Shown here: positions 2,134 to 55,737 of the stretch, piece after piece | How the letters are laid out: every line of letters begins with the position of its first letter | Numbering within the stretch: position 1 is the stretch's first letter | Origin: a virus | Reading direction: 5' to 3' (one strand) | IMG/VR virus record: IMGVR_UViG_3300036980_000377 | Location: 1-62,771 of that record | Length of the DNA stretch: 62,771 nt | Notes under the pieces: generated by a model | Seen by the model: the letters and a program-made list of their open reading frames with translations, nothing else | Told to the model about the DNA's origin: nothing | Databases searched by the model: none | Translations under genes and position numbers: made by a program

Positions 2134-2682
2134 ATGAAAGAGCAAGAAATTTGGCAATTATACTGCGGCAGACATCCTGTAATAGATATTGGTTGTGGTT
2201 GGGATATTTTATTTAACTTTGAGTATGTTAGATTTGATATCGCAGTTCAAATTCTGGGACAGAAAACAACTGTTAATCATTTTGGGGATTTCCACGACAT
2301 GTCTGACTTCTCCGATGAAACTTTTGCATTTATAAACGCGGATCAAGTTATTGAACACGCGGAGTTTCCAAGAGTGGCGTTAAAAGAGTGGATTAGAATT
2401 TTACAGGTTGGTGGAATTCTACATTTATGTTGGCCACATTTAGATGTTTGGGATAGACAACGAATTGAGGACGCCAGAGACGCAGTGAGGCGTGGCGACA
2501 TGCAAGCGTACTACGCTTTAGGCGGAATCGATAACTGGATATCAGTGGGTCAACATGGGGAGAAGTTACTCGACGTACATTGGAATAAAATAAGTATGGA
2601 AGAAATGAAATTGATGCTACCTCCAAATGTAGTTATCCTCGCAGAATACCCGGGGATGTCATTAATATTGAAAAAGGTGTAA
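2134..2682 (+). CDS. Class I SAM-dependent methyltransferase, 182 aa
   Basis: Motif I is V-I-D-I-G-C-G-W-D near residues 17-25, and D-Q-V-I-E-H-A fits the post-motif region of the Methyltransf_11 group. L-Q-V-G-G-I-L-H-L-C-W-P matches the motif around strand 5. The substrate is not evident. The protein is shorter than most complete class I enzymes, so it may be a minimal domain. A cysteine-rich gene starts directly after the stop. Confidence 0.7.
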   Translation: MKEQEIWQLYCGRHPVIDIGCGWDILFNFEYVRFDIAVQILGQKTTVNHFGDFHDMSDFSDETFAFINADQVIEHAEFPRVALKEWIRILQVGGILHLCWPHLDVWDRQRIEDARDAVRRGDMQAYYALGGIDNWISVGQHGEKLLDVHWNKISMEEMKLMLPPNVVILAEYPGMSLILKKV

Positions 2683-2940
2683 GTGATTCGTGGAATAAAA
2701 AATTGCACTAAGTGTAAACGAGACAAGATTGAATGCTTATCCCAGCCATTTGAGAATTGCAATTACTGGCTTTATTATAAGGGACACCCAATTTCAATTC
2801 ACCACCTGGATGGGAATACTTGGTATATTTACTGCCTACAGGAGAAAATTCTCTACACTAAATACTCTGGGGATGGGTCCCGTTATTCCTACTTTGTTCT
2901 CTACAATTGCTATGCTGAAGACTATCCTTTTGCGGTGTGA
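2683..2940 (+). CDS. Cysteine-rich small protein, zinc-ribbon family member (N-terminal signature)
   Basis: The 85-aa protein begins at GTG immediately after the previous stop. Near the N-terminus it has C-T-K-C-K-R-D-K-I-E-C-L, the C-x2-C-x6-C-L signature seen in many small proteins of this window. The rest is Tyr-rich and ends Y-P-F-A-V. It is clearly paralogous to the next gene. It is inferred to bind one zinc; function unknown. Confidence 0.65.
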   Translation: MIRGIKNCTKCKRDKIECLSQPFENCNYWLYYKGHPISIHHLDGNTWYIYCLQEKILYTKYSGDGSRYSYFVLYNCYAEDYPFAV

Positions 2941-3234
2941 ATGCTCCCAAGATCTTGCAGTGTAAAGAGTTGTACCAAATGTAGGAAAGATCCAATAGAC
3001 TGCATTGTAGAGAACAAAGCGTGCGAAGCTGATCTATTCTACAACTCCGGGCAACTCGCCTTCCACTATTTTTGGAGTAATGGGAAACACAAGGTTTATG
3101 TGGTTTACTTTCATCAACGGAAGATCGAGTATTGTCTATTTGTGGATGGCAAAAAAGTAAACGCTGATGGAACTACCTTGCTTGACACTTGTAGTTATGA
3201 AAGTTACACCTCGAAATACCCTTTTATAGAGTAG
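2941..3234 (+). CDS. Cysteine-rich small protein, paralogue of the preceding gene
   Basis: The 97-aa protein starts at ATG directly after the upstream stop. It shares S-C-T-K-C-R-K-D-P-I-D-C-I near the N-terminus, an aromatic middle, and the Y-x-S-K-Y-P-F ending with its neighbour, so the pair arose by tandem duplication. Zinc binding is inferred from the cysteines. Confidence 0.65.
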   Translation: MLPRSCSVKSCTKCRKDPIDCIVENKACEADLFYNSGQLAFHYFWSNGKHKVYVVYFHQRKIEYCLFVDGKKVNADGTTLLDTCSYESYTSKYPFIE

Positions 3235-14203: not shown

Positions 14204-14560
14204 TTGGAATCTAAAAATCCATTAGATCTGGTTGCTGAAATTGCGAGAACCGTTGGAGGTAAAATCGAAGAGGTGGCGCTTTTTGATGATCACGGCTTTG
14301 CAACAATGTCTTTTGATCTGCCTAAAGATCACTGGCTGTATCAAGAGAACTACGATCCTCCACCCGCTCCCTTTCTCATGGGTACAGATAACCCATTAAG
14401 AGATCATCTTGCTAAAGCAATCAGGCAAGCAGGAATTTATGCTATTAGAGCTACGACCAATAGCGGCAAAATCGATGACTACGATCCTGATGCTTGGCTG
14501 CAAAACCTAGTGGTTGGTATGCTAGGTTACTGGACACCAGATGGACACTCACACCTTTAA
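14204..14560 (+). CDS. Hypothetical protein, 118 aa
   Basis: The TTG at 14204 follows GAGGAGG, an excellent ribosome site that decides the start. A soluble acidic protein rich in Asp and Pro in the middle. No domain recognised. It sits between the putative transglycosylase and the polymerase. Confidence 0.6.
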   Translation: MESKNPLDLVAEIARTVGGKIEEVALFDDHGFATMSFDLPKDHWLYQENYDPPPAPFLMGTDNPLRDHLAKAIRQAGIYAIRATTNSGKIDDYDPDAWLQNLVVGMLGYWTPDGHSHL

Positions 14561-14568
14561 GGAGCTTT

Positions 14569-17001
14569 ATGTCTGACGCACAAGATCTTATTAGGAAATT
14601 ACTTGTATCAACTTCCCCAAACTGTGTGGTGCCCGCCTCACGTCCAACAAAAGAATTCTCAGGGCTTGCCTTTGTGGGCATTGCTCCTGCCGAGAAAGAA
14701 GTTGAGCTTGGAGAACCATTTGTCGGTCCTTCTGGTAGGGTGCTTGACGGATGCTTATTTATGGCAGGAATTTCTAGGGAAGCTAGTTGGATCGGAAACC
14801 TTTGTCCTGTTAGACTTCAATCGGATAGAGGCCTCGCAAAATACGAAGTTGATATATTGCGTGAGCCTCTCATCGAGGCTTTACAGAAGCTCAAACCCAA
14901 GGTCGTGGTTACCCTAGGAGCTGAACCCACTAGAGCGCTTTTAAATGTTCCAGACGTTCAGATTATGCTTATGAGATCTCACGTCTATGAGATCCCTGAA
15001 TTACCTGGAACTAAGATCATCCCCTCGATTCATCCATCATTTGCACTGCGTCAAAGTCTAGCCTTAGTTGCTTTATTAGTTAGCGACTTAATGATTGCCA
15101 AGAAAGTCCTAAAAGGTGAAGAAAGGTACAAGCCGTGGACATATACTGAAATTAAAAGCATTCAAGAATTACGTCAAGTTCTTGAATCACACCGCGGACA
15201 AAAGATGTGTCTTGATACTGAAGCGACGAGTCGACACCCTAATCTCGCGGAACTCTTTATGATTAGCTTCGCGTTCTCGGATAATTTAGATCATGGTTAT
15301 GTTATTCATACTCCCACTAAACACTTTGGACTCAACGCTGAACTTCCTGGTCCCCCTGAACTTCTTGATGGACGAGACCACCCTACGCCTCGTGAAGATG
15401 TACTAGAGGTATTTAAAGAATATGATTACGATACGATCATCTTCAATATGCTTTATGACTACATTGTACTTGGAAAATGTGGCTACGAGCCAAGAGTCTT
15501 TGTCGATCCAATGTATGCTTTCGGATCTCTCGATGAGGAATGCCCTAAGAGTCTCGACGTTCTCGGTAGTTTCTTCAGCGGGATTGGTCCCTATACAATG
15601 GACTATCAATCTACAAATATCTCCGACTGGTTACCATATTCGGCATGTGACGCCGTCAATACAAACAGAGTCTGGGCCAGTATCGCTCCTCGCTTTAAAG
15701 AGAAGGCGAAAGACTTCGTTTTGTTTAAATACTTAATGCCTCTTCTCCACAGACTCGCTACGACTAGCATGATTGGATGTTATGTTGATCTCTCCCGTTT
15801 GAATGTCGTTGATGAGAAGATGAATCGAGATATTCAAACAAAAATAGCAATGTTGCATGGGGTAGCTGGATATGAATTCAATCATCGTTCTAACGATCAG
15901 CTTGCACTGGTATTTCAAAAACTCGGGATACCAACTATTGGTAAGACGAAGAAGACTGGAAAACCTTCGTTCCGAAAAGAACTCCTCGAAAAACTCTCAG
16001 GGCGATTCCCTTTTGTGGCTCTTATACGCGAGACCAAATCCTTAGAGAAAATGTACTCAAGCTACATCAAAAATATTAGGAATTATCTGGATGAACATTC
16101 GAGGGTGCACACAAACTTTGATATCAAGAAGACTGGAAGATTATCCGCGAGAGAGCCAGCTCTACAAACACTCCCCAGGGATTCAGTTATTCTTGAGTTG
16201 TTCGCAGCTAAGCCTGGCTGCGTCCTTATTAAATGCGATTTTAGCGCAGCGGAAATGCGCTGGCTCGGTTTTCTGGCTGGGGAGAAAAAGTGGCTTAATC
16301 CCTTTCTAGACATCCATAGATCTAATGCTTCCTTTTTCTACCAGGTTCCAGTGAATGAAGTTACTGATACAATGAGACAGGAAGTTAAATTTCTTGGGTT
16401 TGGTAAGGTTTATGGATCTGGAATTCAAACACTAGCCAAACAATTAGGTTGTTCGGAGCAAGAGGCCGCTAATCGTGAAGATCGATTCTTCGAAACTTTT
16501 CCCAATGTTAAAAAGTTTATGGATGCCCAGAAAGAGCGGGTTCTCAATATGGGCTTCGTTACCAATTATTTTGGTCTTGAACGGCACTTTCACTACGATG
16601 TCAACTTCGGCGTTGAGCAGGATAAAGCAAGAGCTGTCAGGGAGGCTTATAATTTTGGTCCACAATCAGCAACCGCAATGTGGACAAATATGTCTCTCAT
16701 GAAAATTCAAGAATGGTTCGAAAGTCATCTACCTAACTCTCGAGTCGTCCTTCAGATTCACGATGCTATTGTAGCTGAGGTTCCTATTGAAGATTTATTC
16801 ACTGCTTCTCATGCAATTTGGCAGATCATGAGAAGACCTGTTGATAGAAAGACTGGCTTTTTTGTACCCGCTGATATTTCAATTGGATCTAATCTTCTCC
16901 ATCAAGCCAAGGTTATTCCATTTTATGTAACCAACTTCGAAGAAGCATGGGATGCTTATATGTTAAAAACGAAGAAGGAGGAGGAAGCATGGGCTGGGTG
17001 A
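14569..17001 (+). CDS. Family A DNA polymerase with N-terminal uracil-DNA glycosylase domain
   Basis: 810 aa, started at ATG 14569 after AAGGAG. Residues about 25-185 match family-4 UDG: G-E-P-F-V-G-P-S-G (48-56) and H-P-S (155-157). A 3'-5' exonuclease follows: D216/E218, N293/D297, Y357/D361. The polymerase has motif A D-F-S-A-A-E-M-R (557-564), motif B R603/K607/F611/Y615, and motif C Q-I-H-D-A (729-733). The usual H-D-E of motif C is H-D-A, and Ile709 of E. coli Pol I is Ala. No 5'-3' exonuclease domain. It is the likely phage replicase. The UDG domain could monitor uracil in template or product, but whether it is active is unknown. Confidence 0.9.
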   Translation: MSDAQDLIRKLLVSTSPNCVVPASRPTKEFSGLAFVGIAPAEKEVELGEPFVGPSGRVLDGCLFMAGISREASWIGNLCPVRLQSDRGLAKYEVDILREPLIEALQKLKPKVVVTLGAEPTRALLNVPDVQIMLMRSHVYEIPELPGTKIIPSIHPSFALRQSLALVALLVSDLMIAKKVLKGEERYKPWTYTEIKSIQELRQVLESHRGQKMCLDTEATSRHPNLAELFMISFAFSDNLDHGYVIHTPTKHFGLNAELPGPPELLDGRDHPTPREDVLEVFKEYDYDTIIFNMLYDYIVLGKCGYEPRVFVDPMYAFGSLDEECPKSLDVLGSFFSGIGPYTMDYQSTNISDWLPYSACDAVNTNRVWASIAPRFKEKAKDFVLFKYLMPLLHRLATTSMIGCYVDLSRLNVVDEKMNRDIQTKIAMLHGVAGYEFNHRSNDQLALVFQKLGIPTIGKTKKTGKPSFRKELLEKLSGRFPFVALIRETKSLEKMYSSYIKNIRNYLDEHSRVHTNFDIKKTGRLSAREPALQTLPRDSVILELFAAKPGCVLIKCDFSAAEMRWLGFLAGEKKWLNPFLDIHRSNASFFYQVPVNEVTDTMRQEVKFLGFGKVYGSGIQTLAKQLGCSEQEAANREDRFFETFPNVKKFMDAQKERVLNMGFVTNYFGLERHFHYDVNFGVEQDKARAVREAYNFGPQSATAMWTNMSLMKIQEWFESHLPNSRVVLQIHDAIVAEVPIEDLFTASHAIWQIMRRPVDRKTGFFVPADISIGSNLLHQAKVIPFYVTNFEEAWDAYMLKTKKEEEAWAG

Positions 17002-19983: not shown

Positions 19984-20212
19984 TTGGAATTCTATCCACG
20001 CGGGTAAGATTACACAACAAGAAATTCTTAAATACTGCCAAGGAGTCAGCTGGCAAGCTTTAAGACGACTTTTAAAGGGTGCAACCCTTGAAGAGAAATT
20101 CCAGAAACTTAAGGAATGGCTTTCGTTACATAGTAACTCACGTGCATCTCAAGTACAAGTTACTAACTACATAAACGCTCTTAAAAGAGGGGGCATGATC
20201 AAAGATGAATAA
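19970..20212 (+). CDS. Helical hypothetical protein, 80 aa
   Basis: ATG 19970 with GGAGA eight bases upstream is preferred to an earlier in-frame ATG. The sequence looks all-helical with a possible HTH-like region (I-T-Q-Q-E-I-L-K-Y-C then S-W-Q-A-L-R-R-L-L). No confident family. It overlaps the next ATG by 8 bases. Confidence 0.5.
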   Translation: MSNLDWNSIHAGKITQQEILKYCQGVSWQALRRLLKGATLEEKFQKLKEWLSLHSNSRASQVQVTNYINALKRGGMIKDE

Positions 20213-21035
20213 CGGCCAAGATCAATGTCCGTGGTGTAGAGAGTCTGCTCCCAGCTCTGAATGTCAAATTTGTTTTGGAACTGGGTTTAAAGGAGCTACT
20301 GCTCCCCCTAAGATTGGATGGACTCCAATCTACATTACAGCAACTACCCTTGGAGACGCTTGGTTCCAATGCCTCTATCAGATCTGGAATAATGGAAGAC
20401 GCTATAAAATTACTAAAGGTTCTTATGAAGGAGCCTATAGACTCGAGTTCGACTTCGTCTCAGGATTCATCAAGCTTCCACACATTCGCCCTTTGTCTCC
20501 TCTTATGCCCGAGGGCGTACAAGTTCCTTCTCCAACCTCTGATGAAGAAATCGAAAAGTACTTCGCATCTTATATTATGGATCCCGTTCTCGAGCCAAAT
20601 GAAGAATATCGATACAGCTCTTGGATTAATGGAGAAGTAATTGAAGGTCACCCCTCTCCAGTAGAGTGGGTGATTAAACATTTCAAGGAAGCTGGCTATG
20701 GTACGAATCATTGTTACATCCAAGTCGGAAATGCTTCTTCAATCTTTGCATATGACCGGCCTTATACAACTGAGGCAGAAAGAGGTACCAGTCCTTGTCT
20801 ACGAGGGATTGACTTCAAAATTGTGGAGGATGAGCTCTTCATGCACGTTTATTTCAGAAGCTGGGACCTCTTCTCCGGATTTTGCACTAACCTTGGGGGT
20901 CTGGTCTTGCTCAATGAATACGTTAGCCACTGCCTTCCAGGAATTAAACCAGGGCCTATTGCATTTACAAGCAAAGGTCTCCACGTTTACGACTTCGCTC
21001 TCGAGCCTTTAAAAACTTTATTAAGGCAGGATTAA
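20205..21035 (+). CDS. Thymidylate synthase-like enzyme with N-terminal zinc knuckle
   Basis: 276 aa. The ThyA-type catalytic set is present: S-P-C-L-R-G with Cys198, R-S-W-D (218-221), Asn229 at the position that selects uracil over cytosine, and L-H-V-Y (His260, Tyr262). C-L-R-G-I-D resembles archaeal-type thymidylate synthases rather than E. coli ThyA. Residues 8-23 carry C-x2-C-x8-C-x2-C, an added zinc knuckle. It should act on dUMP, making dTMP or possibly hydroxymethyl-dUMP. The substrate is inferred from Asn229 only. Confidence 0.75.
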   Translation: MNNGQDQCPWCRESAPSSECQICFGTGFKGATAPPKIGWTPIYITATTLGDAWFQCLYQIWNNGRRYKITKGSYEGAYRLEFDFVSGFIKLPHIRPLSPLMPEGVQVPSPTSDEEIEKYFASYIMDPVLEPNEEYRYSSWINGEVIEGHPSPVEWVIKHFKEAGYGTNHCYIQVGNASSIFAYDRPYTTEAERGTSPCLRGIDFKIVEDELFMHVYFRSWDLFSGFCTNLGGLVLLNEYVSHCLPGIKPGPIAFTSKGLHVYDFALEPLKTLLRQD

Positions 21036-26627: not shown

Positions 26628-26840
26628 TTGGAAAACACAGACTCTTTCCGGATCCACGTTTTTAAGCTTGAAGGTGAAGCTATTATTTACGTAAAGGCTA
26701 ACTCAATTGAGGAAGCCCAAAACGCTGCGCTCCGAAAAGCTAAGGAGTTAACCTATACACCAAGTCGAGCTCCGTATATGGCGATCGCTTTTGAGGGGCT
26801 TGAAGAGGTTAGTTCACATCAGGAGGAAATTGACGTATGA
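26628..26840 (+). CDS. Hypothetical protein, 70 aa
   Basis: TTTTAGGAGACAAA fixes the TTG start. The pattern F-R-I-H-V-F then I-Y-V-K-A-N-S-I-E-E-A-Q-N-A-A resembles small beta-alpha phage proteins, but I cannot name a family. It overlaps the protease gene by four bases. Confidence 0.55.
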   Translation: MENTDSFRIHVFKLEGEAIIYVKANSIEEAQNAALRKAKELTYTPSRAPYMAIAFEGLEEVSSHQEEIDV

Positions 26841-27706
26841 AATACAGTTTAGGCTGGAGACCCGATCTTCCCGATTTTCGGGATTACACAGATCAAAATG
26901 GAAAAACCCGAGCACTCCTTCAACCTCTAGGTGTACCGGAAATACCTCAAGCTTTAAAGCCGTTTGTAGACAATCGTCAGTTTTGCTCCCCGATTGACGA
27001 CCAAGGCGGACTCGGATCTTGTACTGCTCACATGGGAGTAGGGATGCTTGAGTATTGTGAGTTCAAATCCTTCAAGAAGTTCATCCATGGCTCCCGCCTC
27101 TTTGTCTATAAGGCAACTCGAGACTACGCCGGATATACTGGTGATAGTGGGGCCGAGATTCGAAACACCCTTGGTGCTCTCGCTTTATACGGCGTGCCCG
27201 CCGAACGACTGTGGCCCTATACTGATGATCAACGTCAGTTCGATATTAAACCCCCCGTCGACGTCTACATTGCTGCTCAGAGTTATCAAGCGGCACAGTA
27301 CGTGAGATTGGATTATGCTGGAATTAATAATGAAGTCTTACTCCATAAGATCAAAGCCTATCTTGTCGCCGGCTTCCCTGTAGGCTTTGGCTTTTCCGTT
27401 TATAAGTCAATTGATCAAGCTGATCATGATGGCCGAATCCCCTTCCCCGGAGACACTGAAGAGATGGAAGGAGGCCATGCGATTATGATGGTTGGATTCG
27501 ATGATAGTATGGTAATCCCTAACAATGTCTATAGTATCTCAACGCGGGGAGCCTTTCTTATTCGCAACTCTTGGGGTACTGGTTGGGGTGATAAGGGGTA
27601 TGGGTGGCTTCCTTATGATTATGTTCTTAGAGAACTCGCAGAAGATTTTTGGGTTCTATTAAAGACCGAATGGCTTGATACTCAGCAATTCGGATTTAAA
27701 GATTAA
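26837..27706 (+). CDS. Papain-like (C1A) cysteine protease
   Basis: 289 aa. The catalytic set is intact and in order: oxyanion Gln and nucleophile Cys in Q-G-G-L-G-S-C-T-A-H, His in G-G-H-A-I-M-M-V-G-F-D, and Asn in R-N-S-W-G-T-G-W-G-D-K-G-Y-G. There is no clear signal peptide and only a short pro-region. Papain-family genes are uncommon in phages. Possible targets are a host protein or a phage precursor. Nearest neighbours are a sugar island and a secreted protein. Confidence 0.85.
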   Translation: MKYSLGWRPDLPDFRDYTDQNGKTRALLQPLGVPEIPQALKPFVDNRQFCSPIDDQGGLGSCTAHMGVGMLEYCEFKSFKKFIHGSRLFVYKATRDYAGYTGDSGAEIRNTLGALALYGVPAERLWPYTDDQRQFDIKPPVDVYIAAQSYQAAQYVRLDYAGINNEVLLHKIKAYLVAGFPVGFGFSVYKSIDQADHDGRIPFPGDTEEMEGGHAIMMVGFDDSMVIPNNVYSISTRGAFLIRNSWGTGWGDKGYGWLPYDYVLRELAEDFWVLLKTEWLDTQQFGFKD

Positions 27707-27777: not shown

Positions 27778-28239
27778 ATGAGTAAAAAGATCTTAAAAAA
27801 GGTATTGGTGTCTATGCTCGCACTTGTGTTTGCATCAGCCGCCTTTGCTGGTTGTTGTACATGGACTGCAACCGATGGGACTGAGACTAAATCGTTTTCT
27901 AACTGTTTTAAAACAGCCCAAGACAAGGCTTGCAATCCTCCTGTAGCTGTCATGACTGTGATCAATGCGGCTGCTCCTTTAATCGCTTCGATTTTGAATC
28001 TTGCGGTTCCCGGCTCTTCTGTTTTCATTTCAGCGAGTAATGCCCTACAGTGGGTTACAACTCTCCAAAAAACTGGCTGTCTCGCTCTTACTGATTTAAA
28101 CAAACTGATCGCTTATCTCCAGAGTGCGGACTTTACACAAGGTCAAGCACTTGTTGCTACATCCCAAATGAAGAAGGGGCTACACGCAGCAGCACCAATT
28201 GAAGTTCAACCATTGGTTGATTGGAAAGCGAAATACTAA
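27778..28239 (+). CDS. Secreted protein with signal peptide, 153 aa
   Basis: AAGGAGAAGTAAAC precedes the ATG. A basic start (MSKKILKK), a hydrophobic core and A-S-A-A-F-A-G form a classic signal peptide cleaved near residue 25. A cysteine pair just after the cut (G-C-C) could make it a lipoprotein, but the lipobox is poor. The mature part has two further cysteines and an Ala/Leu-rich helix. Function unknown; export or surface action is inferred. Confidence 0.65.
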   Translation: MSKKILKKVLVSMLALVFASAAFAGCCTWTATDGTETKSFSNCFKTAQDKACNPPVAVMTVINAAAPLIASILNLAVPGSSVFISASNALQWVTTLQKTGCLALTDLNKLIAYLQSADFTQGQALVATSQMKKGLHAAAPIEVQPLVDWKAKY

Positions 28240-28251
28240 AAAAGGTATACA

Positions 28252-28710
28252 ATGAGAATCTTCCAACGAATTATTGGGGTGCCCGGAGTTGGTAATCTCG
28301 GAGCTGTTAAAGATGGAGCGATCTATCGCTCCGCGCAGCCTGAAATTTATGAAGCTCTACCCCAATACTTAGGGATAAAATCTGTTCTATATCTTCGCGA
28401 AGATTCTAAGCAAACTGAGGTTGAGGCGGCGGGAATGAAGTTTTTCTCCTTCCGCCTCAACGTCTTTTCTGATATCACCTTTGATGACTTCGATCTACTC
28501 TCAATGACTATGGCTGATCCCGAAAATCAACCAATACTAATTCAATGACTGCAGGGTCATGATCGCACAGGGGTCGCCTGTGCAGCATACAGATTAAAAG
28601 TAGATAAATGGTTGTTAGAAGAAGCACTCGAGGAAATGGACTCTTACGGATTTAATGAGTTGTGGCTTACATTAAAGCACCATCTAACTGCTTATGCTAA
28701 GTCACTTTAA
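28252..28710 (+). CDS. Dual-specificity/tyrosine phosphatase with in-frame UGA at the catalytic cysteine (candidate selenoprotein)
   Basis: From ATG 28252 the frame shows Y-R-S-A-Q-P (residues about 25-30), S-V-L-Y-L-R-E-D and P-I-L-I-Q, then TGA at codon 99 (28546-28548), and continues L-Q-G-H-D-R-T-G-V for 53 codons to TAA. The TGA stands exactly where the CX5R nucleophile cysteine belongs. A 7-bp hairpin with a GGTCG loop lies 16 bases downstream. Readings: selenocysteine, a broken gene, or a sequence error. TGA is a normal stop throughout this window, so general recoding is ruled out. Truncated at TGA, the protein would lack its active site. Confidence 0.7.
28546..28583 (+). promoter_or_regulatory. 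Candidate bacterial SECIS element
   Basis: After TGA (28546-28548), GCACAGG (28565-28571) pairs perfectly with CCTGTGC (28577-28583) around the loop GGTCG (28572-28576). Bacterial SECIS elements are hairpins just downstream of UGA with a G at the start of a short apical loop; the E. coli fdhF loop contains GGUC. The loop begins 24 bases after the TGA, inside the usual range. Part of the stem is constrained by coding for R-T-G, so chance remains possible. Confidence 0.45.
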
Positions 28711-31690: not shown

Positions 31691-33037
31691 ATGTCAACTA
31701 TTCCATGGCCCAAGATTCGACCTGATCGCCAAATTCACTCCGCAGAGCAAATCTTAATCGGGAGTCTTCTAATGAACCCTGGGAGACTCACACGGTATGA
31801 GCAGAATATTATTTACCATGAAGAGCCTTTAAATGGCGCTGACTTTGAGCATCAGCAGTGGAAGACTCGTTACTTTTCTATGTGGGGTGGAAAGCTCACC
31901 CACAGCTCGGGACTCTCGTTCATAGTCCCTGAAAATATTTGTGTAAGGTTTAGCTGCGGAACAATCTTAAGTGGTGACACCTCACATTTAATGCCGATGC
32001 TTGATGATTTCGGTCTAGCTAATTGGTTTATGGAAAGTGGAGTAGTCTTAAGTAGCCGCCCTGAAATTTATCTTCCCCTGCCTCCGAGCTGGCGTTCTCA
32101 GAAGGGGGTTATGGAGAAACTTTTTAGTCGATTCGATGCCTTCGCAGACGTTAAAGGATTTCTTTCGATTCAAGATGTTGGTACATTTAAAGATGTTATC
32201 TTTCCAAACGTGATCCCATCTAAGCGATATAAGTTCAAGCATCTCAACGAAGAGATGCACGATGTCTCTAAGACGTCAACCCTGTCAGTCGGAATTCAAA
32301 AAGTAGGGATTAGGCAGGTTCCAATCCCCTTGAATATTCACTTGAAAGATCAAATCCAACCTACGATCGCTAAAGCTTCGATCTATACGGATTTAAGTGA
32401 AGACGTAATGGGCTCTCACCTAAGTAGACTCCTCGAAGTTCTTGATAAGGTTTCGTGCGATGTAGTCAGCACAGATTTACAAACAATGGAGTTGTATCTT
32501 AACACCTTAAAGGAAAGACTCAATGCCACGAACGCGTATTTAAAATTACGGTTTCCAATACTTCTTTCACAGCTCGCCCCTGTGACAGGAATTCCAGGAC
32601 ATATTCGATATGAATGTACCCTCTCAGGTGAGATTGATAGTGGTGATCTCAAAGTCTTCAAAACAATTCGTGTACCATATATGTCTGCTTGCATCTGTTC
32701 TAAAAGCATTTCACTCTTTAACGCCCACTGTCAACGATCGTTTGCTGATGTTACGCTTCTTCTAAAAGATAGCGACGTCCCATTTGAAGAACTTGTTGAG
32801 ATCGTTGAACATTCATGCTCCGCACCTATCAGAGCCACCTTAAAGAGAGAAGATGAAAAGTTCATTACTGAACAGGCGTACGACAGGGCAGGCTTTGTAG
32901 AAACAATCAGCCGACACATTGCCAAGCAACTGGACAATTTAAGGGTTAGAGGCTGGTTAGTTGTTTGTGAGCATGAAGAAAGTTTACACCAACATAATGC
33001 AGTCGCTCTCATCCGAGGCGGTGAGTATATTCCCTGA
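31691..33037 (+). CDS. GTP cyclohydrolase FolE2-like enzyme with N-terminal extension
   Basis: 448 aa, against about 260-300 for FolE2. From about residue 200 the FolE2 (type IB) features appear: P-L-N-I-H near the domain start, L-A-P-V-T-G-I-P-G-H, C-I-C-S-K-S-I-S-L-F-N-A-H-C-Q-R-S (metal/catalytic region; canonical form has A-H-N-Q-R-S), and K-R-E-D-E-K-F-I-T-E-Q-A-Y. FolE2 makes dihydroneopterin triphosphate, the QueD substrate. The first 190 residues are not recognised. It sits right after the SbcCD genes. Confidence 0.75.
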   Translation: MSTIPWPKIRPDRQIHSAEQILIGSLLMNPGRLTRYEQNIIYHEEPLNGADFEHQQWKTRYFSMWGGKLTHSSGLSFIVPENICVRFSCGTILSGDTSHLMPMLDDFGLANWFMESGVVLSSRPEIYLPLPPSWRSQKGVMEKLFSRFDAFADVKGFLSIQDVGTFKDVIFPNVIPSKRYKFKHLNEEMHDVSKTSTLSVGIQKVGIRQVPIPLNIHLKDQIQPTIAKASIYTDLSEDVMGSHLSRLLEVLDKVSCDVVSTDLQTMELYLNTLKERLNATNAYLKLRFPILLSQLAPVTGIPGHIRYECTLSGEIDSGDLKVFKTIRVPYMSACICSKSISLFNAHCQRSFADVTLLLKDSDVPFEELVEIVEHSCSAPIRATLKREDEKFITEQAYDRAGFVETISRHIAKQLDNLRVRGWLVVCEHEESLHQHNAVALIRGGEYIP

Positions 33038-47398: not shown

Positions 47399-48133
47399 AT
47401 GGCTGGTAATGAATCTTGCATCGTTCTTCTTTCGGGAGGAATGGATAGTACTACTCTGTTGGCTGAAGCTGTCCAGCGATTTCAAAAAGTTAGAACTCTT
47501 ACGTTTAATTACAATCAACGACATAAGCGGGAAATCGAGTCCGCGAAGACTGTTTCGGACTTCTATAAAGTTCCGAATAAGGTTGTTGATATCACCATGA
47601 TCAATCCCCTTCTTCAAGGTTCTTCCCTTACGTCAGATGAAGTTGACGTTCCGAAAGGACACTACGAAGAGAAGTCCATGCAAGCAACAGTTGTCCCTGG
47701 AAGGAACACCATCCTTTTAAGTATCGCGGCCGGACATGCGGCAAGTCTAGGGTATTCTCATGTTTCCTTTGCAGCGCATGCAGGAGACCATGCAATCTAT
47801 CCGGATTGCAGAGGGGAGTATGTTGATGCGATGAATAAAGTGCTCAGCCTCTTTCATTACTTTCCCGTAAAAGTTTGGGCTCCCTTTCTCTTTGGTACTA
47901 AGGTTCAAATCATCCAAGCGGGGCTTGAGATGAAAGTACCATATCAATTGACTTGGACATGCTATGAGGGTAAAGAGTTAGCGTGTGGAAAGTGTGGGAG
48001 CTGCGTTGAACGTATTGAAGGTTTTATGTTGAATCAAGTCGTTGATCCCGTTCAATATGAAGGCGGCTGGGAGACTGCAAGTCAAGCCGCAATGTCGATT
48101 TTAAGATCCGGTGCCAAATCTTCAGTTCTATAA
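47399..48133 (+). CDS. queC: 7-cyano-7-deazaguanine synthase (QueC)
   Basis: 244 aa. The PP-loop L-S-G-G-M-D-S-T-T (11-19) and C-terminal zinc cysteines C-Y-E-G and A-C-G-K-C-G-S-C are all present. QueC makes preQ0 from 7-carboxy-7-deazaguanine using ATP and ammonia. With QueD and a FolE2-like gene it gives the phage three of four steps to preQ0. Confidence 0.92.
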   Translation: MAGNESCIVLLSGGMDSTTLLAEAVQRFQKVRTLTFNYNQRHKREIESAKTVSDFYKVPNKVVDITMINPLLQGSSLTSDEVDVPKGHYEEKSMQATVVPGRNTILLSIAAGHAASLGYSHVSFAAHAGDHAIYPDCRGEYVDAMNKVLSLFHYFPVKVWAPFLFGTKVQIIQAGLEMKVPYQLTWTCYEGKELACGKCGSCVERIEGFMLNQVVDPVQYEGGWETASQAAMSILRSGAKSSVL

Positions 48134-53004: not shown

Positions 53005-53239
53005 AGAATGGTTTCAAACTGAAGTAATTCCAGAAGAGCAACGCCTTGAAGTCAAACCTATGAACATGAGAGGCATTATCTGGACTTGCTTTTCTCCAGC
53101 CAGCTCTAAGGCTCTCGCGATTGAAAACAAGGAGTTAAGACGTAAGATTGAACTTATGAACACTCGGATGGCAATCCTTTATAAGAGATACTTTCATAAA
53201 GATCATCCGACATGGAAACTACCTGATACGACTAAATAG
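52868..53239 (+). CDS. Lipoprotein, possible o-spanin (Rz1-like), 123 aa
   Basis: ATG 52868 gives a basic start, a hydrophobic core and the lipobox L-I-A-G-C near residue 22, then a Pro/Gln/Val-rich stretch. It overlaps the coiled-coil gene by 137 bases in another frame, as spanin genes often do. It is longer than most Rz1 proteins. It would fuse outer and inner membranes at lysis. Confidence 0.5.
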   Translation: MIKKKRTFQTVVLSWLIIGLIAGCTVAPQIQPQVQVAVKEEPILNEEWFQTEVIPEEQRLEVKPMNMRGIIWTCFSPASSKALAIENKELRRKIELMNTRMAILYKRYFHKDHPTWKLPDTTK

Positions 53240-55737
53240 TGACGACTCCATTTGGACTTAAGAAATTATCGAGAGCTGAATGTGAGCTTCTCAGAAAAAT
53301 GGCAGAAGAACGTTTTGACTTCTTCAACGCTGTATTTCTGGATACTGTTCTACAACCCTTTCACAAGAAGTGGTTTGAGTTTCAACAAGCCAATCAACGT
53401 ACACTAGTCCTAGGCCCTCGCGCAAGTTGGAAATGTGTCGCCAGTGATAGTTTAATTCCAACTGCCGAGGGTCTTTCTTATCTTCACGAGCTTCTCCCCT
53501 CCTCTGATCTTCCCTATACCGCCGAGATTCAATCCAACGTTAATTCGTGTCTAGGTATCACTGAAGCCACTCAAGCATTCTGTAATGGGCGTGAGGCGGG
53601 TCTTGAGATTGAAACCGAAGATGGTTTCACTTTATCTTGCGGACCTGCGCATGGAATCTTTGTTTGGGATGATCACTATCTAAGATTTAAAAAAGCGGAG
53701 CGTCTCAGGCCCGGAAGTCAAATCCTTTTTAAATGTGGATGGCACTCGTATGCAAACTCCGATAGTAATCCTTACAATGTCCCAAGAGGCCTTTGGTTCC
53801 AATTCCTCTCTTTCTTTTGGGCCGCGGGGTCGTCTCGCTGGGGAATCATATGGCGACAACGAACTTTCCGTAAGAAAGTGGCAACTCCACTATGGAAGTT
53901 TTTCGGGCATCGAGATTGGAGCAGTTTACCACCTCAAGTTGAAGAATTTTTGAGCACCAAAACCGAGGGTCAATTCCTTCCGCTATTTTTACGTCAGTGT
54001 ACAAAAGAGGCCGCAAAGGAGATTGCGAAAGCTTTTTGGTGGTACAATCAACATGTAAAGTTTACGGAGGAGCAAGCTAAGGAAGTTCAGATTTGGTTTC
54101 TTAATTTAGGTTTACCTTTGAAGAGGGTGGGATCAACTCTGCTTCATCGTAGCCCAGAACTACGGAAGCAGTTTTATAACTTTCTAAAAGATAATTCCCA
54201 ACCTCTTCCCTATACTGAAAATCAGATAGAGAATTTAGCTGATCTAACGCTATTAGAACTTAATAACAGCGCGTTTACTCCACCATTAATAAAACTACAT
54301 GCAAAGATTAAAGGTAGAAATGGATTCCAAAATCGTACCAGAAAAGCCCAAGAGTTCGTCAGTGAATACCTACAGTATGCCCCAAACATTAGACGCTTTG
54401 CCTTTATGTTCCGATTTCCCTTCTTTCTTCAAACTGTTAAGCAAGTCAATAAAAAAGAAATCACAACCCTCGACCTCGCAACCCGTGAAGGAAATTATAT
54501 TGCTAACGGGCTTATCACCCACAATTCAACAATTCTTGATAAGCATTATAGCATATGGCGTGCTCTACGAGATCCAAATATACGAATTGGAATTGTATCT
54601 AAATCGTCGCTGCTGTCGTCCAGTTTCGTCTCTCAGATTAAGCACGTTCTTGAAAGCAACCAGCGGATCCGGATGGTCTGGCCTGACTTAATCAATCCAG
54701 CTCAAGCGCCTAAATGGAATAACAACGAAGTTACCCTTATTCGCCCTCTCTCCAGTTCTGAAGCAACATTCACAGCTATGGGAGTTGGTACAACACTTGC
54801 TGGGCGCCACTTTGATATTCTCATCTTCGACGACGTAGTTGATACAGACTGTCAAGCATCCCCCATCCTTAGAAAAAGGATTTGGGATTGGTTTAGATTT
54901 GTCGCAATGCAAACACTCAGCGTAGCTCAGTATACTCAAGCACACATCATTGGGACCCTATATCACCCCGAAGATTTGTATCACCGAGTACTCGATTTCG
55001 AAAAAGACGGAAAAGGTAACTGGCTAAGTAGTATCCAACCGGCTATTAACCCAGACGGAACCTCTTTCTGGGAAGAAGCGTTTCCACTAACCGAACTACA
55101 AAGTATTGAAGCTACTTACGGCGTCGACGTCTTTAAACTCCAATATCAAAATGATCCTGAGTTTGGAGGGACTGGACTTTTAGACTGGTCATTCTTTGAT
55201 GATAGTTACTACGATACTGATGATGTCAACACCGATAAACTCGATATTGTTATGGGTGTAGATCTTGCCGCACCTGGTACAGATAAAACATCTCATCACA
55301 GCTCATTTGCAATTGTTATTGTTGGGACTGACTCACAATCCAGGAAGTCTTATGTCATTGATGCCATTAAACGTAAGAGCTTACGCATGGCAGATCAGCG
55401 AGATATGATCATCGACCGTTATCAAATTTATCCCAGTATGCACTCGATTCAGGTGGAAGCATATGCAGTTCAAACATATTTCCATGAATATTTGAATGAA
55501 GTAGAAATCCCGCTTCCAATTTATCGAGTCCAAACCGGAGGGTCAAAAGAGGGGCGCTACGATTTTATTGTTTCTTTGATTCAAAACGGTAGACTTTTCT
55601 TTAAGGAAAACCTACATCGTGAACTAATTGAAGAGATTTGCAACTTCCCCCAAACCTCCGCAGACTTAATCGATGCGTTGTATCTTGCTTTAAAGGGAAT
55701 CCAACGAGAGCCCCGTCTCCGATTCTTGACCATGTAA
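53239..55737 (+). CDS. Terminase large subunit with intein
   Basis: 832 aa precursor, GTG start overlapping the upstream TAG. The ATPase Walker A region reads G-P-R-A-S-W-K, is interrupted by an intein at residues 66-429, and resumes S-T-I-L-D-K. Walker B is I-L-I-F-D-D-V (after the intein). The nuclease domain has M-G-V-D-L-A-A-P and later D-A-L-Y-L-A-L. The spliced protein of about 468 aa pumps DNA into proheads and cuts it. Confidence 0.88.
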   Translation: MTTPFGLKKLSRAECELLRKMAEERFDFFNAVFLDTVLQPFHKKWFEFQQANQRTLVLGPRASWKCVASDSLIPTAEGLSYLHELLPSSDLPYTAEIQSNVNSCLGITEATQAFCNGREAGLEIETEDGFTLSCGPAHGIFVWDDHYLRFKKAERLRPGSQILFKCGWHSYANSDSNPYNVPRGLWFQFLSFFWAAGSSRWGIIWRQRTFRKKVATPLWKFFGHRDWSSLPPQVEEFLSTKTEGQFLPLFLRQCTKEAAKEIAKAFWWYNQHVKFTEEQAKEVQIWFLNLGLPLKRVGSTLLHRSPELRKQFYNFLKDNSQPLPYTENQIENLADLTLLELNNSAFTPPLIKLHAKIKGRNGFQNRTRKAQEFVSEYLQYAPNIRRFAFMFRFPFFLQTVKQVNKKEITTLDLATREGNYIANGLITHNSTILDKHYSIWRALRDPNIRIGIVSKSSLLSSSFVSQIKHVLESNQRIRMVWPDLINPAQAPKWNNNEVTLIRPLSSSEATFTAMGVGTTLAGRHFDILIFDDVVDTDCQASPILRKRIWDWFRFVAMQTLSVAQYTQAHIIGTLYHPEDLYHRVLDFEKDGKGNWLSSIQPAINPDGTSFWEEAFPLTELQSIEATYGVDVFKLQYQNDPEFGGTGLLDWSFFDDSYYDTDDVNTDKLDIVMGVDLAAPGTDKTSHHSSFAIVIVGTDSQSRKSYVIDAIKRKSLRMADQRDMIIDRYQIYPSMHSIQVEAYAVQTYFHEYLNEVEIPLPIYRVQTGGSKEGRYDFIVSLIQNGRLFFKENLHRELIEEICNFPQTSADLIDALYLALKGIQREPRLRFLTM
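53434..54525 (+). other. Intein (364 aa) in the terminase Walker A motif
   Basis: Cys1 in C-V-A-S-D-S-L-I-P-T-A-E-G (block A), block B G-L-E-I-E-T-E-D-G-F with a G-P-A-H histidine, and block F/G T-L-D-L-A-T-R-E-G-N-Y-I-A-N-G-L-I-T-H-N, with Ser as +1 residue. The extra 200 residues resemble a LAGLIDADG endonuclease (F-L-S-F-F-W-A-A-G-S-S), but the motif aspartates are Ala, so cleavage activity is probably lost. Confidence 0.88.

Follow-up and report, generated by a model that had tools for sequence, protein, structure and literature searches.

The phage record and the phosphatase reading frame

The window analysed here, 62,771 bases in length, covers the entire virus record IMGVR_UViG_3300036980_000377. 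It represents a tailed phage with portal and terminase genes and 21 tRNA genes, and it also encodes an A-family DNA polymerase and RecA-like, SbcCD-like, QueC and FolE2 proteins. No similar phage record was found when parts of the window were compared at the DNA level. Near relatives of the phage were sought with the DNA polymerase, which gave none, and with the terminase, which gave two, both distant. For host inference, the best matches of the portal and DUF7873 proteins led to unrelated hosts.

The terminase large subunit (53239-55737, 832 residues) contained an intein-splicing match at residues 111-429. One frame at 14494-17001 combined the A-family DNA polymerase with an N-terminal uracil-DNA-glycosylase domain, and in a 276-residue protein (20205-21035) the thymidylate synthase match was limited to residues 196-274. 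QueC (47399-48133) and FolE2 (31691-33037) together suggest a 7-deazaguanine pathway for modification of DNA or tRNA. The FolE2-type GTP cyclohydrolase domain was confined to residues 189-439 of its 448-residue frame; the N-terminal part gave a weak LAGLIDADG match and may stem from the insertion of a homing endonuclease or an intein-like element.

The phosphatase reading frame lies on the plus strand at 28252-28710. It begins with ATG at 28252 and runs for 98 codons to a TGA at 28546-28548 (codon 99), beyond which 53 open codons lead to a TAA at 28708-28710. Translated with read-through, it would give 152 residues. If the TGA were a true stop, 173 nt would separate it from the next gene in a tightly packed region. 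Directly before the frame, at 27778-28239, a small protein was encoded that had a signal-peptide-like N-terminus with a cysteine and lacked a Pfam match. A papain-family cysteine protease was located just upstream, at 26837-27706. L150 carries a related phosphatase and, directly downstream of it, a related protease with 33% identity (L150:1852-2385 and 2412-3194), and this adjacency in both sequences raises the suspicion that protease and phosphatase may travel as a pair.

The read-through product, scored with the TGA counted as a residue, matched the PF03162 (Y_phosphatase2) profile at residues 17-136 with 37.5 bits (cut-off 27; E 2.4e-9). Matches to PDB sequences were obtained with TpbA (4r0s and 2m3v, residues 23-136) and with At1g05000/SIW14. 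An AlphaFold2 model, built from an alignment of 32 members, showed a complete phosphatase fold with a pLDDT of 94.3. The best fold match was TpbA 4r0s (TM 0.78), and SIW14 gave TM 0.77-0.80. As judged from sequence and model, the frame is by family of the TpbA/SIW14 type, and phosphatase activity is predicted. The Pfam and PDB alignments crossed the TGA uninterrupted and placed it at the invariant Cys of CX5R. An earlier note, made from the sequence alone, had described phosphatase similarity before and after the TGA and had assigned codon 99 to the catalytic nucleophile of a CX5R phosphatase; both statements agree with the Pfam and PDB alignments and with the relatives described below.

Conservation around codons 98 and 99

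Viral contigs were scanned with the Cys-codon version of the motif pattern, in which Cys was required and the position before it could be His or Gln. This yielded 118 stretches, of which 112 were true phosphatases by profile. His preceded Cys in all 112. The TGA aligned with Cys in 112/112 of these homologues, Cys being preset by the pattern, and such a Cys/Sec pairing is a criterion for selenoproteins. The same Cys was present in the Pfam and PDB alignments and in the closest relatives from IMG/VR, L124, L125 and L130 (56%, 45% and 41% identity over the full length). These three share the N-terminal region and the motif with the window protein, and all have His-Cys, encoded by CAT TGT, CAC TGC and CAT TGT, respectively, whereas the window has CAA TGA. 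The earlier note had proposed a look among related phages for Cys or TGA at codon 99; Cys (TGT or TGC) was found in all relatives examined and TGA in none.

Codon 98 (CAA, Gln; 28543-28545), a change that the earlier note had overlooked, thus stands where the 112 homologues have His. Compared with the relatives, each of the two HC codons is altered at its third base, in each case to A. The remainder of the P-loop (LQGHDRTG, 28549-28572) was fully conserved in the alignment to relatives. In an alignment with 38 relatives, 17 positions were conserved at a level of 80% or more; the window kept 15 of them and differed only at the HC pair. In terms of the signature His-Cys-X5-Arg-(Ser/Thr)-Gly, Arg-Thr-Gly was present, His was replaced by Gln and Cys by TGA. 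L125 and L130 were closer to the window protein than to L124. With synonymous sites saturated, pN against L124 was 0.26 before the TGA and 0.30 after it. These values point to purifying selection on both sides of the TGA with no sign of relaxed evolution, which indicates that the change at codons 98-99 is either recent or functional.

A recent change would fit a freshly inactivated gene, in which a multi-base event turned His-Cys into Gln-stop, leaving a fragment of 98 residues that lacks the P-loop. We consider this a serious contender, somewhat short of an even chance. The HC pair is altered at both residues while the rest of the conserved set is intact, the relatives all have Cys, and both changed third bases (28545 and 28548) sit in the same arm of an inverted repeat (ATGAC/GTCAT, 28545-28560) that is a possible template-switch site. 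Perhaps a single template switch in this repeat produced both; short switches between inverted repeats are described as a known source of such changes (PMC8604942). The repeat is weak evidence, however, since 11% of simulated double changes fell in such a repeat. Inactivation would also require the stop to strike the single catalytic codon, one of 53 codons in the frame that are one step from a stop, with no other decay.

An artefact of sequencing or assembly, with ordinary codons at 98-99 in the phage itself, is the least probable explanation weighed here. The sequence comes from one record only, and in an ocean survey no decision was reached on single TGA sequences accompanied by SECIS candidates, as errors could not be excluded (PMC2398784). 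An error would nevertheless have to place a wrong A in the consensus twice, at positions three bases from each other, in an otherwise perfect frame.

If the stop were leaky and read as an ordinary amino acid, a catalytically dead full-length pseudophosphatase would be made beside the truncated form. The loss of His and Cys with retention of the arginine loop and the fold has the look of a dead binding version. Leakiness can occur at a UGA with C as the next base, as is the case here. A missense codon would have sufficed for such a protein without any stop, and no dead version was seen among the homologues, though the scanned pattern required Cys. We regard this explanation as improbable.

TGA ended 34 of the 98 plus-strand ORFs in the window, the phosphatase frame counted, in accordance with the earlier description of TGA as an ordinary stop elsewhere. 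Reassignment of TGA to Trp, Gly or another amino acid was rejected on this ground and because other genes lacked a coding extension beyond a TGA like that of the phosphatase. Re-initiation after the stop was rejected as well; the first in-frame ATG, GTG or TTG occurs at codon 121, beyond the P-loop.

The hairpin downstream of the TGA

A SECIS-like hairpin was located on the plus strand at 28565-28583 (GCACAGG / GGTCG / CCTGTGC), 16 nt from TGA to stem and 23 nt from TGA to loop (28572-28576). The perfect 7-bp stem, the GGTCG loop and the 16-base distance were exactly as first described. Its energy was −11.7 kcal/mol bare and −13.2 kcal/mol within a 28-nt segment. The published bSECIS model has a loop of 3-9 nt, a stem of 4-16 bp, G in the first two loop positions, a distance of 16-37 nt from the UGA and an energy of −7.5 kcal/mol or lower (PMC13188914). 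Scoring with a bacterial SECIS model had been suggested in the earlier note, and the hairpin agreed with the published model in every respect (loop 5, stem 7, GG, 23 nt, −11.7 kcal/mol). It matched no known RNA family. A transcription terminator was rejected, as no T run follows the hairpin.

Chance rates were estimated from 4000 synonymous recodings, in which amino acids were fixed and codons were redrawn from the usage of the phage. The bSECIS model was satisfied by 240 of these (6%) and the observed energy was matched by 31 (0.8%). At 6166 codon positions in 17 genes of the phage, 45 positions satisfied the model and none matched the energy; for 89 distinct Cys homologues the numbers were 6 and 1. 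The post-motif hairpin of L124, L125 and L130 was never as strong as that of the window. With a chance rate of about 6%, agreement with the model counts as weak evidence; the stability of the hairpin, at about 1%, is stronger. If the gene was inactivated, so strong a SECIS-like hairpin must be there by luck.

Proposed selenocysteine reading of the TGA and comparison with known systems

We favour the reading in which UGA99 is decoded as selenocysteine by host SelB, with Sec replacing the His-assisted Cys, at a rough probability of 0.45. It is ranked narrowly above recent inactivation; the two are near even, and the odds are a judgement rather than a computation. The gene product would be soluble and short, a TpbA/SIW14-like phosphatase belonging to a phage subfamily. 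On arrival of the ribosome at UGA99, the hairpin, with GGUC in its loop, would recruit host SelB with Sec-tRNA(Sec). Sec would be inserted, and translation would continue to the TAA, giving a product with Gln-Sec in place of His-Cys. In tyrosine phosphatases, the His of the HC pair lowers the pKa of the Cys. The pKa of a selenol is about 5.2, against 8.3 for a thiol (PMC13188914), so Sec would be an ionised nucleophile with no need for this His; on this chemical argument, loss of an otherwise invariant His would be tolerable. We infer the use of host SelA, SelB, SelC and SelD, the Sec in the product, the phosphatase activity and the role of Gln98.

The selenocysteine reading is supported by the position of the TGA exactly on the catalytic Cys among the 53 codons at risk, by a protein about as conserved after the TGA as before it, and by retention of 15 of 17 family-conserved positions. 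It is also supported by a hairpin that fits bSECIS with an energy rare among recodings, codon positions and Cys homologues, and by a read-through product that models as a complete phosphatase (pLDDT 94.3, TpbA TM 0.78). Otherwise a 173-nt gap would have stayed undeleted in a tightly packed region.

The search for relatives with TGA weakens it. The TGA version of the motif was sought in 2.9 million viral contigs and 84,980 species genomes, and no second TGA phosphatase was found; the pattern matched 46 + 22 + 6 = 74 stretches, each checked frame by frame, and none was a phosphatase. Two phyla were also covered, with about 150 PF03162 matches listed in all. Among the matches listed from 395 genomes of Desulfobacterota, the phylum of a Desulfobacteraceae genome and a group known for selenoproteins, none had an in-frame TGA and one had a TAA. 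Among those listed from 398 genomes of Pseudomonadota, the phylum of a Thiodiazotropha genome, no stop of any kind was seen. TGA homologues in other organisms, a further criterion for selenoproteins, were therefore missing from these sets. Siblings could exist unseen, since the collections may omit records very near that of the window.

The reading is further weakened by the loss of His98, which an active-site lesion could explain, by the 6% of recodings that agree with bSECIS by chance, and by the low prior probability that a phage would encode a Sec phosphatase. No tRNA-Sec gene was present among the 21 tRNA genes of the window, which belongs to a single metagenomic contig; the statement of the earlier note that no tRNA has a UCA anticodon thus holds (0/21). 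A 2026 review of prokaryotic selenoproteins does not contain the words phosphatase, phage or virus (PMC13188914), which also counts against it. The selenophosphatase proposed in the earlier note is therefore borne out in its phosphatase family, in the TGA at the nucleophile, in the flanking conservation and in the bSECIS hairpin, and is set back by the lack of a TGA relative and the loss of His. The present analysis adds the second altered HC codon, the bSECIS fit of the hairpin with its chance rates and the missing TGA relatives. That the locus holds a phage-encoded selenocysteine phosphatase which borrows host SelB, with Sec making the active-site His dispensable, is a tentative reading, a little under even odds. 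Two outcomes stand side by side, a selenium-containing phosphatase that would be the first carried by a phage and a gene broken very recently, and sequence alone cannot quite decide between them.

We know of no earlier phage-encoded selenoprotein, and almost all of the prokaryotic selenoproteins described so far are redox enzymes. If the selenocysteine reading is true, the frame would represent a new family of selenoproteins, and the CX5R phosphatases would gain their first such member. Natural Sec use would extend to phosphoryl transfer, with Sec as a phosphatase nucleophile, and what the HC histidine does could be tested in a natural variant. A phage could then depend on host Sec machinery, which would link the range of its hosts to their use of selenium. 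If the lesion is fresh, the locus is a warning that a catalytic-site TGA and a SECIS-like hairpin can co-occur by chance.

TpbA of Pseudomonas aeruginosa, SIW14 and the plant and fungal atypical dual-specificity phosphatases resemble the window frame in the PF03162 profile, PDB sequence match and fold, and share with it the CX5R arginine and DRTG. The window frame differs from this group in TGA for Cys and Gln for His, in being phage-encoded and in being short, with little sequence ahead of the catalytic domain. The rhodanese fold is related to Cdc25 phosphatases. Rhodanese-like selenoproteins are among the known prokaryotic ones (PMC13188914) and carry Sec in an active-site loop, as proposed here, but have a sulfurtransferase-type fold and chemistry and belong to a different family. 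Other virus genes tied to selenocysteine appear in passages of PMC8310308, which link poxvirus glutathione peroxidases to it, and of PMC6145125, which report a tRNA-Sec gene in Basilisk-like phages; these passages name no phage-encoded selenoprotein. The former are redox enzymes of eukaryotic viruses and the latter tie is a tRNA gene only. The earlier note had likened the hairpin to bacterial SECIS elements such as that of fdhF, and this resemblance is limited. E. coli FdhF and the window frame both have an in-frame UGA at the catalytic Cys and a coding-sequence hairpin just downstream, and the likeness holds for the loop, GGUC in both (the fdhF segment was checked in genomes). It does not extend to the stem, which in fdhF is interrupted by a bulge and extended by a lower helix, or to the spacing (loop start 18 nt after the UGA in fdhF and 23 nt in the window), and FdhF is a redox enzyme.
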